Source: Thioalkalivibrio sp.
GTDB taxonomy: Bacteria > Pseudomonadota > Gammaproteobacteria > Ectothiorhodospirales > Ectothiorhodospiraceae
DNA length: 38,209 bases
Assembly (NCBI RefSeq): GCF_007692535.1
Contig: NZ_REBW01000118.1
Coordinates: 1-38,209, forward strand
Direction of reading: 5' to 3'
How positions within the stretch are numbered: the first letter of the stretch is position 1; each line of letters starts with the position of its first letter. The notes under the pieces were generated by a model, which saw only the letters and a program-made list of their open reading frames with translations, was not told where the DNA came from and searched no databases. This document shows positions 463-18,663 of this stretch, one piece after another. The translations under genes were made by a program, and so were the position numbers.

Positions 463-3400
463 ATGGATATCGAACGCATGCTCGGCCTGGGTACCCCCCC
501 GGCCGATCCCGAGGCGGAGCGCCTGAAGGTCCAGCTCTATATCAATCTGAAGCTCGCCTCGTCCGGCCAGCCGACCTTTCTGACCGGTGACATGGCCGAG
601 TTCCTGGGCACCGCGCAGGATCTGCTGAAGTCCTACCGCGAGAAGAACCGGTTGCTCTCGCATCATCACTGCCCGTCCGACCGGCGCATCCAGGACTTTC
701 TCAGGCGCTACCTGCAGGGCCTCGACATTGGTCCCGTTCCCTCGCTCCCGACACAGACATTCATTCTCGACCGGCACGGGGTCGCACGCGAGCTGTCGCT
801 GCCCATCGACGGGGACGAGTTTCACTCGGAGATCCTGTCCAGCTACCGAGTGCGCCAGGGCGTGCTGCACAATCCCGACAAGGACCGACGCACCACCGAG
901 GGCTCGTTCCACATCGCCGAGGGCGGACTGCCCATCCCCGGAGACAAGAAGGCCGTTCCCCGCGAGACCTTCGCCCACCTGCTGGGCCATGCGTTGAATC
1001 CGCCGCAGGATCTGCTGACCCTGCCGTTCACGATCAACGCGAAGCGGCCCGCGCGGATGTTCGTCTCCCTGCTCCTGCGGCCCACCGTCTGCCCCGAGAT
1101 TCCGCACCGCGAGGCGGAAAAGACGATGGAGATCCGCTTCTTCGCGCCCGGGAACCTGGTCAGCAACCTGGACTTCGTAGAGAGCATTTTCGGCAACGGC
1201 GGCAACCCCAACCTCCCCGAGTTCGACGCCGCCCTGGACGTCGAACACTGGACCGGGCACACCGGCTGCGTGATCCTCGCCCCGCACCTGATCCGTTGCA
1301 CCAAGAAGGAACTGGGCCTGCCCCGATGGGACGAGGCCAGCGAACGTCAGCGTCAGGAGGGGATGTGCTGGCGCGACGAAGGCGAACTGTACAACGAGGG
1401 CCAGGCCTTCAAGCTCACCGCGCGCGACGAGTCCGGCGTCATCGTGACCGTGATCGCCGACAACTACTTCGGCTACTGCAAGAAGGAGGTGAAGACCCAG
1501 ATCAGCTTCGCCGCCAACCTGTACGGCCTGGCCGAGGAGGAGCATGCCGGTGGCGCCCTCGCCTTCCGGCGCCGCAACCATGGCGAGGAGTACGGCGTCG
1601 ACAGCCGCACCCGCGAGGCGGGGTACAGCTTTGCCGAAATGGTCGAACGCTATGGGCCGATCATGGACGTGCGCCCCGAGGGCTATGCGGTGGACCGCCG
1701 CCATCCGGAGGTCGTGTACGTCCCCCAGGATCTGCGCATGGCCCTGAACGCCCAGACCATCACCTGGGACAAGGACGGTCAGACGCAGACCATCCGCCTG
1801 CAGCCCGGAAAGATCTACATGCAGCCCAACGGCTATCGGGTGGAAATGCTGAAACACCCCGGTGCCCCGTCCTGGCGGCTGGTGGGTACCGATCCCGAGG
1901 GAACCTTCTGTCACAAGCCCTGCACTGTCTCCGGCGGCGGCAAGAGCGAGATATCCAAGTCCATCGAAGATGCCGTGATCTTCGGACCGTTGTTCGTCGA
2001 CGACCTGCACAGGGATCTCGATCGCGTGCAGGAGATCTTCGACCGCGACTACAGCTCGCGCTTTCGCCCGGGGCTCGAACAGGAGGACCGCGATCCCGCC
2101 CGCAAGCCGCTGAGTCCCAAGCGGAGCCTGGGGTCGGTGATCAAGCTGCTGACACCCTCGAAGAGCTACACGGCCGAATTCAACCGGTGGCTCGAATCCA
2201 TCCCCCCGCGCATCCTGGCCCTGGTTTTCCTGATCAAGCGCTTCTACCGTCAGGAGTGGGGCAACGACTGGCGCCGGCATCTCTCGGTGGACGAGGTCGA
2301 TGGTGCACCCGGCCATGAGCTGAAGCTGCACGGCCGGCGCATCATCGCCACCTACCTGCGCCTTGGCTTCGATACCGAAGGCAAGTGGCGCACCTTCAAG
2401 GTCCGCCAGGATTACATACCGGCCGAGAAGGTACAGATGGAGGACGACATCAGCGCCAGCGTGGTCGTACCGGCAACCTGTCTGACCTCGGCACCCCCGG
2501 GGGACGGCGGCCGGCGCAGCCACAAGCTGGTCAAGAACTGCGAGTCCCGGCTATTCCAGCGGCCGGATGAGGCGATTCATCCCGGGTTCGATCGACAGAC
2601 CGAGTTCGACATCGCCCAGCAGGGCAGCTTCCTGGCCAATTACGAACCCCTTCGGGGCGACAGCCTCGCTGCCGTCACCGAGGACGTGCTGACGCTGTGC
2701 AACTTCACCGACCCGATGCGTGACCTCCTGCTCGAGGCTGGTCGCTCCGATGGCTACGTCGTCTCGTCGGCGCATCCGCGCCTGGTGGACGGCAAGCCCT
2801 CGAAGAATCCCCGGTACCTGCAGATCCGTCCCGATCTGGTCCGGCCGGAGCGGCGCTATGCCGCCGAGATGGGCGCGCGCTTCCACCGCAAGCTGCCGCT
2901 GGAGGAAACGCTGTGCCTGCCGGTGGACGCGGTGCTGACCGGCCGGCGCAACAACCCGCCGGAGCCCGGTATCCGGCCGCTGGCGGTGTATAACCCCATC
3001 CACTACCAGGAACTTCCCGAGCTGTTCATGGACTTCGTCTGCTCCCTGACCGGCAAGTCCCCGTCGACCACGGGGGCGGGCAGCGAGGGGGCACTGACCA
3101 AGGGCCCGTTCAACGCGCTGCGGCCGACGGCCGACCTGAACAACGCACTGGTGTCGTTCATCCTGACCGGCTATGCAGGCTTTTCGAGTTCCGCCGGCCA
3201 CATCGGCCCGCAGGTGCGCGTCGACCATGACGTCAGCCTGCTGATCCCGGAGATCTGGACCCGCCTGCACCGGCAGGAACGCGAGCCGGGCTTCCTGATC
3301 GAGAACGGCTACCTGGAGCCGCTGCACGACTTCGAACACCAGGGACGCAAGGTACTTGCCAGCCGGCTTGGCTACCGCATCACCGATCGCTTCGTCCACG

Positions 3401-3960
3401 ACTTCATGGGCAAGATCTTCGACAATCCCAGCGCGGTCTTCACGGATACGATCCTGCGCCCCGAGACCCAGGATCTGGCCGTCTTCGCAGACGGCGTCGG
3501 CAACATCGTCGAAGCCCAGCAGCGGGTGGCGCAACGTTACCTGGAGGACGGCTGCCTGGATGACGCCTGCCCGCCCCTGCAAGCCCTACTGCACATCATG
3601 GCCGAAGGGCACTTCCAGGGTCGTGACGTGCATCACCCCGACATCCGGGCCATGTTCACCCGCGACTACCTGCTGGGTTCGGACTGGTACCGGGAGCGCC
3701 TGGAAACCAAGCAGCGACGTGACAGCGCACTGTGGGAGCGCCATGTGGAGAGTCTGCAGGCATTCCTGCACATGGAGAGCCACGCCGACGAGGCCGAGCG
3801 CCTGGGCCTCAGCATGCGCCTCGACGCAGCACGGCGGAAACTCTCCGAGGTGCGGGGCGAGGACTACCTGAAGAGCCTGATCGGGACCATCGGCGCCGAC
3901 CCGCTCCGTCCCACACGCTGCGGCGTCGAGCTGCCGGTACCGCAGCGCAAGGTCGCCTGA
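463..3960 (+). CDS. Probable PPi-dependent phosphoenolpyruvate carboxykinase
   Basis: A 1165-residue cytosolic protein with no signal peptide or membrane segment. Its length and several blocks match my recollection of the PPi-type PEP carboxykinases described in Entamoeba and Propionibacterium, which interconvert PEP, CO2 and phosphate with oxaloacetate and pyrophosphate. Visible blocks are EGGLPIPGDKKAVP near the N-terminus, GHTGCVILAPH, KKEVKTQISFAANLYG, a P-loop-like SGGGKS at residues 490-495, and FVDD about 20 residues later. The last two resemble the kinase-1a and kinase-2 motifs of ATP- and GTP-type PEPCKs. ATP- and GTP-type enzymes are only about 530-620 residues. ATG 463 is chosen over the adjoining TTG at 460 because GGAGG at 450-454 is 8 bases away. 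The family call is from memory of motifs, not a search; the reading frame itself is secure. Confidence 0.65.
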   Translation: MDIERMLGLGTPPADPEAERLKVQLYINLKLASSGQPTFLTGDMAEFLGTAQDLLKSYREKNRLLSHHHCPSDRRIQDFLRRYLQGLDIGPVPSLPTQTFILDRHGVARELSLPIDGDEFHSEILSSYRVRQGVLHNPDKDRRTTEGSFHIAEGGLPIPGDKKAVPRETFAHLLGHALNPPQDLLTLPFTINAKRPARMFVSLLLRPTVCPEIPHREAEKTMEIRFFAPGNLVSNLDFVESIFGNGGNPNLPEFDAALDVEHWTGHTGCVILAPHLIRCTKKELGLPRWDEASERQRQEGMCWRDEGELYNEGQAFKLTARDESGVIVTVIADNYFGYCKKEVKTQISFAANLYGLAEEEHAGGALAFRRRNHGEEYGVDSRTREAGYSFAEMVERYGPIMDVRPEGYAVDRRHPEVVYVPQDLRMALNAQTITWDKDGQTQTIRLQPGKIYMQPNGYRVEMLKHPGAPSWRLVGTDPEGTFCHKPCTVSGGGKSEISKSIEDAVIFGPLFVDDLHRDLDRVQEIFDRDYSSRFRPGLEQEDRDPARKPLSPKRSLGSVIKLLTPSKSYTAEFNRWLESIPPRILALVFLIKRFYRQEWGNDWRRHLSVDEVDGAPGHELKLHGRRIIATYLRLGFDTEGKWRTFKVRQDYIPAEKVQMEDDISASVVVPATCLTSAPPGDGGRRSHKLVKNCESRLFQRPDEAIHPGFDRQTEFDIAQQGSFLANYEPLRGDSLAAVTEDVLTLCNFTDPMRDLLLEAGRSDGYVVSSAHPRLVDGKPSKNPRYLQIRPDLVRPERRYAAEMGARFHRKLPLEETLCLPVDAVLTGRRNNPPEPGIRPLAVYNPIHYQELPELFMDFVCSLTGKSPSTTGAGSEGALTKGPFNALRPTADLNNALVSFILTGYAGFSSSAGHIGPQVRVDHDVSLLIPEIWTRLHRQEREPGFLIENGYLEPLHDFEHQGRKVLASRLGYRITDRFVHDFMGKIFDNPSAVFTDTILRPETQDLAVFADGVGNIVEAQQRVAQRYLEDGCLDDACPPLQALLHIMAEGHFQGRDVHHPDIRAMFTRDYLLGSDWYRERLETKQRRDSALWERHVESLQAFLHMESHADEAERLGLSMRLDAARRKLSEVRGEDYLKSLIGTIGADPLRPTRCGVELPVPQRKVA

Positions 3961-3993: not shown

Positions 3994-4023
3994 CTGTACC
4001 GGCCCGCATGCGGGCCGGTACAG
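3994..4023. terminator. Perfect 30-bp palindrome between convergent genes
   Basis: CTGTACCGGCCCGCA is followed immediately by its exact reverse complement, giving a loopless 15-bp dyad. It sits between the stop of the PEPCK candidate (3960) and the stop of the leftward DsrC-like gene (4027). That position is typical of a bidirectional terminator. There is no T-tract on either side, so it may work through RNA folding with Rho, or be a protein-binding site. Confidence 0.6.
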
Positions 4024-4026
4024 GGA

Positions 4027-4398
4027 TCAGGATACGCTGCCGAAGCTCTGGCTCGACGCCTCGGGGGGCGGCTGGAGACCGGCCAGGCGACAGCCCTGCG
4101 CAACCGGACCGCCGGGCATGAGTTCGTAGAGGTACTTACGCCCCCCGGCAGCATGAAAGTGTTCCTCCAGCGCATCGTGCAATTCCCGCATATTGATGCG
4201 CGGGGAGTCCTTGTGGCGATGGAAGAACTCCTGCAGGGCACGGACGAGTTCCCAGTGCTCCGAGGTCAGTTCGAGCCCCTCCTCGCTGGCGACACGCTCC
4301 GCGTCCTCGCGGCTCCAGTCAAACGGGGCATGGGGAAACTCGGGATCGCGTTGGATCGCCCCCGGATTGAGGACTTCTTGCATCAGATCTTCAGCCAT
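4027..4398 (-). CDS. DsrC/TusE-family sulfur carrier-like protein with atypical C-terminus
   Basis: A 123-residue protein of the DsrC/TusE family, small cytosolic proteins that carry sulfur on C-terminal cysteines in tRNA thiolation or dissimilatory sulfur metabolism. The family core is clear: a W at the start of the helical region (HWELVRALQEFF), INMRELHDALEEHF, and the signature KYLYELMPGGPVAQGC. Cys103 matches the upstream cysteine (CysB) of the DsrC CX10C arm. The position of the usual penultimate CysA is Ala114, and the chain then continues for nine residues ending SFGSVS. GGAGGG stands 8 bases before the ATG. No other dsr or tus genes adjoin it. It is unlikely to form the usual CysA-CysB disulfide and may be regulatory or degenerate. 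Confidence 0.85.
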   Translation of the reverse strand: MAEDLMQEVLNPGAIQRDPEFPHAPFDWSREDAERVASEEGLELTSEHWELVRALQEFFHRHKDSPRINMRELHDALEEHFHAAGGRKYLYELMPGGPVAQGCRLAGLQPPPEASSQSFGSVS

Positions 4399-14113: not shown

Positions 14114-14407
14114 CTAAACGCAGCCCGTGGGCTTCGGCAGGCCGCCGTACTTGGTGATCGGCTTCATCGGGCCGGTCATCCAGGTCGTGAACATGCCCTT
14201 CTGGTCGGCATTCATGAATTTCGCGAACTTGCGGATCGGCGGCACCACCGCATGGTCCTCGAAATACTCGCGGGCCTTCACGATGTGTTCCCACTTTTCG
14301 TCGTCGAGTTCGATGCCGTCGGCCTCGGCCATGGCACGCCCGATTTCTGGGGTCCAGCAGTCCCTGTCGACGAGGTAGCCGTCGCCGTCGCGTTCTGGAA
14401 GATCCAT
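14114..14407 (-). CDS. TusE/DsrC-family sulfur relay protein, single C-terminal cysteine
   Basis: A 97-residue member of the TusE/DsrC family. The opening DGYLVDRDCWTPEIGRAMAEADGIEL is typical, as are WEHIVKAREYFEDHAVVPPIRKFAKFM and the end GGLPKPTGCV. The penultimate Cys96 is the persulfide-carrying CysA; the CysB position is Thr85. This is the TusE-type pattern, in which a single cysteine accepts sulfur in relay pathways such as tRNA 2-thiouridine synthesis. No TusBCD or rhodanese neighbour is present. AGGAG is 7 bases before the ATG. It is the second family member in the window; the paralogue at 4027 keeps CysB and lacks CysA. Confidence 0.9.
   Translation of the reverse strand: MDLPERDGDGYLVDRDCWTPEIGRAMAEADGIELDDEKWEHIVKAREYFEDHAVVPPIRKFAKFMNADQKGMFTTWMTGPMKPITKYGGLPKPTGCV

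Positions 14408-16398: not shown

Positions 16399-18663
<2,265 letters not shown>

Follow-up and report, generated by a model that had tools for sequence, protein, structure and literature searches.

A DsrC-family protein of Thioalkalivibrio very probably belongs to a distinct, conserved branch marked by an FG tail and tied to reverse-Dsr genomes

Introduction

Members of the DsrC/TusE family are told apart by two cysteines: DsrC carries both, on a CX10C arm; TusE carries CysA alone; and RspA-like proteins carry neither. The CysA, CysB and RspA labels are used below as in the original prediction.

Several reports bear on what these cysteines do and where unusual copies occur. PMC3397948 reports Cys111 as the sole site at which DsrC was found persulfurated. 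Phage-encoded DsrC proteins were tallied in PMC8190135 as 23 with both cysteines, 112 with the second only, 1 with the first only and 5 with neither. Outside the dsr operon, several DsrC-like genes in A. vinosum (PMC3368242) and non-canonical dsrC homologues in the S. velum symbiont (PMC4287430) have been recorded, with their role stated as open or doubtful in both papers.

Here, we analyse one such gene on a 38,209-nucleotide contig of Thioalkalivibrio sp. (the whole stretch is referred to as the window). The original prediction had described its product as an uncommon DsrC-like protein that retains CysB only and has an extended end. We place it in a group termed FG-tail for its C-terminal signature, FG[ST][VA]x. 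The FG-tail branch is apparently undescribed: searches of open-access literature gave no account of it, though one may already exist in Venceslau et al. 2014, the principal review on DsrC.

Results

The gene and its product are laid out as follows.

4027-4398, minus strand: FG-tail DsrC-family open reading frame, 123 aa; ATG at 4398, TGA stop at 4027-4029
4090-4092, minus strand: codon of Cys103, CysB position and sole cysteine of the protein (translation and family alignment)
4057-4059, minus strand: codon of Ala114, in the DsrC CysA column (translation and family alignment)
4030-4056, minus strand: nine residues past the CysA column, with the end FGSVS; Ser121 codon at 4036-4038
4030-4092, minus strand: C-terminal arm beginning at the CysB position, 21 residues (13 in DsrC)

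The plus-strand frame over the same interval is another, different open frame; the gene reads on the minus strand. Judged by profile scores, the protein falls in the DsrC family far beyond chance, with matches to Pfam DsrC (PF04358; E 1.2e-19, 71.2 bits, cut-off 24.9) and TIGR03342 (68.8 bits, cut-off 53.5); the closest PDB entry by sequence is A. vinosum DsrC (1yx3, 3.4e-14). In the family alignment, Cys103 sits in the DsrC CysB column, Ala114 occupies column 114 and nine residues follow, so that the C-terminus was read correctly by the original prediction on all three points. The protein ends in ...EASSQSFGSVS and is a net eight residues longer than DsrC past column 114. It thus has Cys103 at the CysB position with no CysA to pair with, lacks the penultimate cysteine of canonical DsrC, differs from RspA-like proteins in having Cys103, and shares with the FG-tail group the 21-residue arm and the FG[ST][VA]x signature (here QSFGSVS). 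No RNA family reached the gathering threshold anywhere in the window, and neither an intrinsic terminator nor a sigma-70 promoter was detected near the gene.

Codon comparisons show purifying selection on the gene, with a dN/dS of 0.05-0.16 between the window gene and seven same-genus orthologues and 0.03-0.24 over 28 same-genus gene pairs, the lowest value reflecting saturated dS, and pN was below pS in the arm codons.

The wider family alignment (130 rows, with 94 FG-tail and 15 DsrC rows) was built from a set cleared of identical sequences, 3'-open reading frames and hits extending more than 40 residues past the match; alignment counts were made with the spurious partial frame L054_3_215 and the truncated paralogue L148_4080 removed, taking the FG-tail rows from 95 to 94. 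All 15 DsrC rows had Cys in columns 103 and 114. Among a closer set of 40 aligned relatives of the window protein, equal arm length and Ser121 were found in all 40, and Cys103 in 36, with Ala in four same-genus rows (L013-L016). Further members of the group include more divergent sequences, L111-L130 among them, and a set ending in ...RLANLRTPA..TDLSFGTNY or similar. Counted from the CysB column, the arm was 21 residues long in 89 of the 94 FG-tail rows, the other five giving 15 or 25 by pattern match, vs 13 residues in 14/15 DsrC rows. Position 121 was Ser or Thr in 91/94, and the three residues ahead of the last two were FGS in 68, FGT in 13, MGS in 6 and other in 7. The CysB position was far less constant, with Cys in 67/75 rows of the main clade and 6/19 of the divergent set (73 of the 93 FG-tail rows in the tree) and at least nine changes of state on the tree among those 93 rows (L054_3_215 and L124 left out of this count); 18 of the 94 rows lacked any Cys within the last 100 residues. 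As far as the alignment can tell, the trait kept by the group is the FG tail, not CysB.

With 40 aligned relatives and 94 family rows, the protein is not the rarity that had been proposed. No orthologue ended in GCV, whether in Thioalkalivibrio, Thiobacillus, Rhodoblastus or other Gamma- and Alphaproteobacteria, although near relatives keeping that terminus had been named as the finding that would expose a frameshift or sequencing error. Such an error at the 3' end, or one of assembly, was rejected, as relatives in independent genomes across genera end alike.

In the tree made from all columns (132 rows), a branch (99/89) divided off 36 DsrC, TusE and other non-FG rows, and L148_4080, the truncated paralogue, fell among the FG-tail rows. 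When the arm was removed (130 rows, L003 also left out), 95 rows (the 94 FG-tail rows and L148_4080) were divided from 35 at an SH-aLRT of 81, below the tool's mark of 95. The FG-tail label changed twice in either tree, vs about 32 times in shuffles; the trees rest on few columns, and the FG-tail rows need not form a rooted clade. On these trees the group appears distinct from DsrC, from TusE and from the remaining cysteine-poor members, and weakly so without the arm. The idea of a clade defined by CysB alone did not survive: the tree and the CysB state changes reject it, the FG[ST] tail is what marks the group, and proteins with CysB only also occur outside it. Taken together, we consider the protein at 4027-4398 very probably a member of a distinct, conserved DsrC/TusE branch tied to the reverse-Dsr pathway.

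Compared with the described types, FG-tail proteins have in common with DsrC (A. vinosum Cys100/Cys111) the fold, as predicted, the HW and KYLYxLFPxGPxxQ(A/G)CxxAG(L) core, the CysB position and an occurrence in dsrA genomes; they differ in a CysA column that is mostly Ala, Ser or Thr, in the arm of 21 vs 13 residues from CysB, in the end (FG[ST][VA]x vs GC[VI]) and in a changed lysine surface. TusE shares the family model TIGR03342 and shows the reverse cysteine pattern, keeping CysA without CysB (L062, L064 and L072 end in TNCL). Cysteine-poor paralogues of the ESRRKGGY type (L002, L051, L058, L059, L190) likewise lack CysA and occur in dsrA genomes, but have another tail, no CysB and a separate place on the tree. 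Proteins ending in RPR[AT]WSTG (L026, L027, L191) keep CysB and lack CysA, but have no FG tail and lie on a separate branch (seen on the tree for L026 and L027). The SUP05 phage dsrC_1 also misses the second C-terminal cysteine and is in addition without a 7-8 residue insertion, a comparison with the FG-tail proteins by description only, as given in PMC4164917.

Orthologues were found in same-genus genomes, Thiobacillus, Rhodoblastus, Hydrogenophilales, Muproteobacteria and marine or sponge-type gammaproteobacterial MAGs. Their distribution was followed in an order set of 47 genomes and a class set of 369 genomes (by profile search), together with a GTDB-based contig collection, dsrA being called at E<=1e-60. 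Among the 38 genomes of the home order that were at least 90% complete, nine carried an FG-tail gene and all nine had dsrA; two (G012, G027) had dsrA without it. In the class sample, at least 62 genomes among the matches listed were carriers and 117 had dsrA. The carriers were counted by hand and include the variant ends FGASY (G202), FGVAQ (G340), MGSVH (G170) and AGGTVK (G156 and G279); G171, whose hit ends in NDCIDHS, was left out. Among the matches listed, dsrA was present in 56/62 FG-tail genomes (of at least 62 carriers) vs 61/307 others, i.e., 56 genomes with both, 61 with dsrA only, 6 with the FG-tail gene only and 246 with neither (Fisher p 2e-26, kinship ignored). The 61 dsrA genomes with no FG-tail member detected among the matches listed indicate that the protein is not required for the pathway. 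Of the six carriers without dsrA, G340 and G139 held pieces of dsrB, G257 a weak hit only, and G165, G355 and G369 none. Among 26 genomes reached through contig loci, dsrA exceeded the cut-off in 20 and was partial in three (G047, G048, G069), and was absent or present only as scraps in G061, G070 and G072. The branch is thus widespread, mostly in reverse-Dsr sulfur oxidisers. Within the Alphaproteobacteria, 2/240 sampled genomes gave an FG-tail hit (G049, the sample centre, and G481), the remaining hits being DsrC or other types; one scan of viral contigs returned 51 pattern matches and no confirmed FG-tail member.

Two side observations arose from these searches. A contig titled as a Halobacteria archaeon (L060) codes for an FG-tail protein; the dsrA of the genome to which it belongs scores 643 bits, like gammaproteobacterial ones, and the label of this bin looks doubtful. 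In some genomes of the family, a second, different dsrA (~570 bits) was also seen beside the usual one, at G013:C1:1775437, G041:C99:4673 and G042:C514:15386.

In the window genome and most others, the FG-tail gene lies far from dsr. No conserved operon or neighbours emerged from 25 FG-tail loci plus the window, nor from a larger set; these neighbour counts are rough, the custom gene caller having assigned wrong strands in L204, which is GC-rich, and overlooked the FG-tail gene itself in a few loci (L039 and L056 among them). Closer placements do occur. In the alphaproteobacterial genome G481 (L204), the FG-tail gene (17701-18066, minus strand) is convergent with a cobB-type gene, taken by position to be dsrN, and is separated from its end by 8 bp. 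This cobB-type gene closes the run dsrA, dsrB, dsrE, dsrF, dsrC, DsrM-type, DsrL, dsrO, dsrP; a Sulf_transp gene comes after. At five marine gammaproteobacterial loci (L051, L052, L057, L058, L059), the gene and a DsrL homologue run convergently; this homologue shares 51% identity with the DsrL of G481 and 55% with the own-genome DsrL, and in G058, G065 and G066, dsrA lies about 6 kb away on the FG-tail contig.

In the window, the following features lie next to the gene.

463-3960, plus strand: convergent neighbour, homologue of PPi-dependent PEP carboxykinase (PPi-PEPCK), 1165 aa (matches 6k31 and 8e1u)
3994-4023, no strand assigned: perfect 30-bp palindrome between the convergent genes, 15-nt arms, no spacer

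The palindrome has no T-run and is therefore not scored as an intrinsic terminator. The 463-3960 product gave no Pfam hit. A PPi-PEPCK homologue was found in 5/47 order genomes and adjoins the FG-tail gene in all five; the distant G320 has one less than 1 kb from its FG-tail gene. As a candidate partner it was set aside as probably not part of the system: of 31 class genomes with PPi-PEPCK, only G000 and G320, among the matches listed, have it near the FG-tail gene, and the arrangement is read as local synteny.

Six DsrC-family members are encoded by the window genome (3.13 Mb, 99.8% complete). Its true DsrC (L001, on contig C136) ends in TGCV, keeps CysB and shares its contig with dsrA, and three others (L002, L005, L006) have neither cysteine in the usual place. 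Another lies in the window.

14114-14407, minus strand: second DsrC-family member of the window, 97 aa, TGCV end, CysA kept, Thr at the CysB position

This second protein has an odd stretch ahead of CysA (WMTGPMKPITKYGGLPKPTGCV) and a long tree branch. Elsewhere, a second kind of DsrC-like protein with CysB only and without the FG tail was noted (L026 and L027, ending in RPRAWSTG; L191, ending in RPRTWSTG; L116 1959-2318). Beside ESRRKGGY-type DsrC-like genes, in marine gammaproteobacteria and in the window's own genome, stands a gene matching Pfam 'Cas6', at the following places.

L058, 9333-10022, minus strand: 'Cas6'-matching gene (9e-61)
L051, 4600-5289, minus strand: same, by BLAST cluster
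L002, 720-1403, plus strand: same, by BLAST cluster

The AlphaFold2 model of the FG-tail protein has a DsrC-like helical fold (mean pLDDT 77.5). Its nearest solved structures are A. vinosum DsrC, 1yx3 (E 6e-4, TM 0.57/0.62), the best PDB match of what is a predicted model only, and then 7syb (E 0.019), a DsrC-family sulfurtransferase; Foldseek gave no significant match other than DsrC members. The arm end, residues 117-123, has pLDDT <50 and is therefore predicted to be flexible. In the main FG-tail clade, the lysines that DsrC has at columns 75, 79, 100 and 110 (87-100%) are replaced by Asp (97%), Glu (95%), Ala (83%) and Pro/Ala/Val, respectively.

Discussion

From these comparisons, the FG-tail protein is probably not a sulfur carrier, with CysA replaced and CysB dispensable. 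The residue at which DsrC is persulfurated, Cys111 according to PMC3397948, is missing from it, and it should therefore not carry sulfur as DsrC does. A flexible end of fixed length and fixed sequence suggests, on the predicted model, a docking arm. Our best overall reading, to which we assign a probability of roughly 0.45, is that of a dsr-associated, non-carrier DsrC paralogue whose FG(S/T) arm docks on a partner in the reverse-Dsr (rDsr) pathway as a regulator or competitor. For the mechanism, we infer that the DsrC fold and flexible arm would dock on an acceptor of DsrC (DsrAB/DsrL, DsrEFH or DsrMK) or, alternatively, on DsrC itself; this docking would tune sulfur flux, and Cys103, where kept, could add a redox-sensitive mixed disulfide. 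The role of docking regulator is put forward tentatively; it falls within the class of decoy, regulator or partner that the original prediction had suggested, and that class is the one we would prefer. Counting against it, the gene is unlinked to dsr in most genomes, the window genome included, and Cys103 is kept in more main-clade rows (67/75) than a purely structural residue needs. With the lysine surface replaced in that clade, partner choice may differ from that of DsrC, and the protein may not bind DsrC partners at all.

The retention of Cys103 could instead point to a sulfur relay or redox partner working with one cysteine, in which Cys103 would form a disulfide with, e.g., CysA of DsrC, TusA or DsrE and the arm would merely position it. 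The counts (67/75 main-clade rows, 73/93 FG-tail rows) and a GCRxAG context close to that of DsrC CysB speak for such a relay; we nonetheless hold it possible but doubtful, given at least nine CysB state changes, Ala in four same-genus orthologues and a DsrC persulfuration site (Cys111; PMC3397948) that FG-tail proteins do not have, while the 18/94 rows without a Cys in the last 100 residues make persulfide loading on CysB unlikely as a shared function. That the gene stands alone and unlinked in most genomes would equally suit a transcription regulator of sulfur genes, i.e., a DsrC-fold DNA-binding protein (RspA-like in the terms of the original prediction) with the arm as sensor, and PMC7787665 refers to a putative transcription-regulating role of DsrC. 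This appears unlikely, since the 75-84 region has acidic or other residues in place of lysines in the main clade, no DNA-binding family in Pfam or NCBIfam was matched and Foldseek gave nothing significant outside the DsrC members.

A TusE-like role in tRNA thiolation would explain the match to the TusE/DsrC/DsvC subfamily model; it is very improbable with an NF008562 (TusE equivalog) score of 58.6 bits vs a cut-off of 191, the absence of the CysA that TusE keeps and a distribution that tracks dsrA. A pseudogene, frameshift or 3' assembly error can practically be dismissed in view of the like end in independent genomes across genera and the dN/dS of 0.03-0.24 over 28 pairs. On balance, and with confidence somewhat short of even, we thus favour a role in rDsr as a binding or control partner over the Cys103 relay, the DNA-binding regulator and the TusE role. 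A narrower form of the docking reading, in which the long, Ser/Thr-ended arm would slot into the position of DsrC on rDsrAB(L) or on a different Dsr acceptor as a dummy DsrC that cannot form a persulfide or trisulfide, seems improbable to us; if true, it would constitute a protein brake on the reverse sulfite reductase of sulfur oxidisers.

Ultimately, the FG[ST] arm signature sorts part of the DsrC-like genes that rDsr sulfur oxidisers carry outside the dsr operon into one group, and this group raises the question of whether sulfur flux through rDsr may be controlled by a DsrC copy that is itself unable to carry sulfur.
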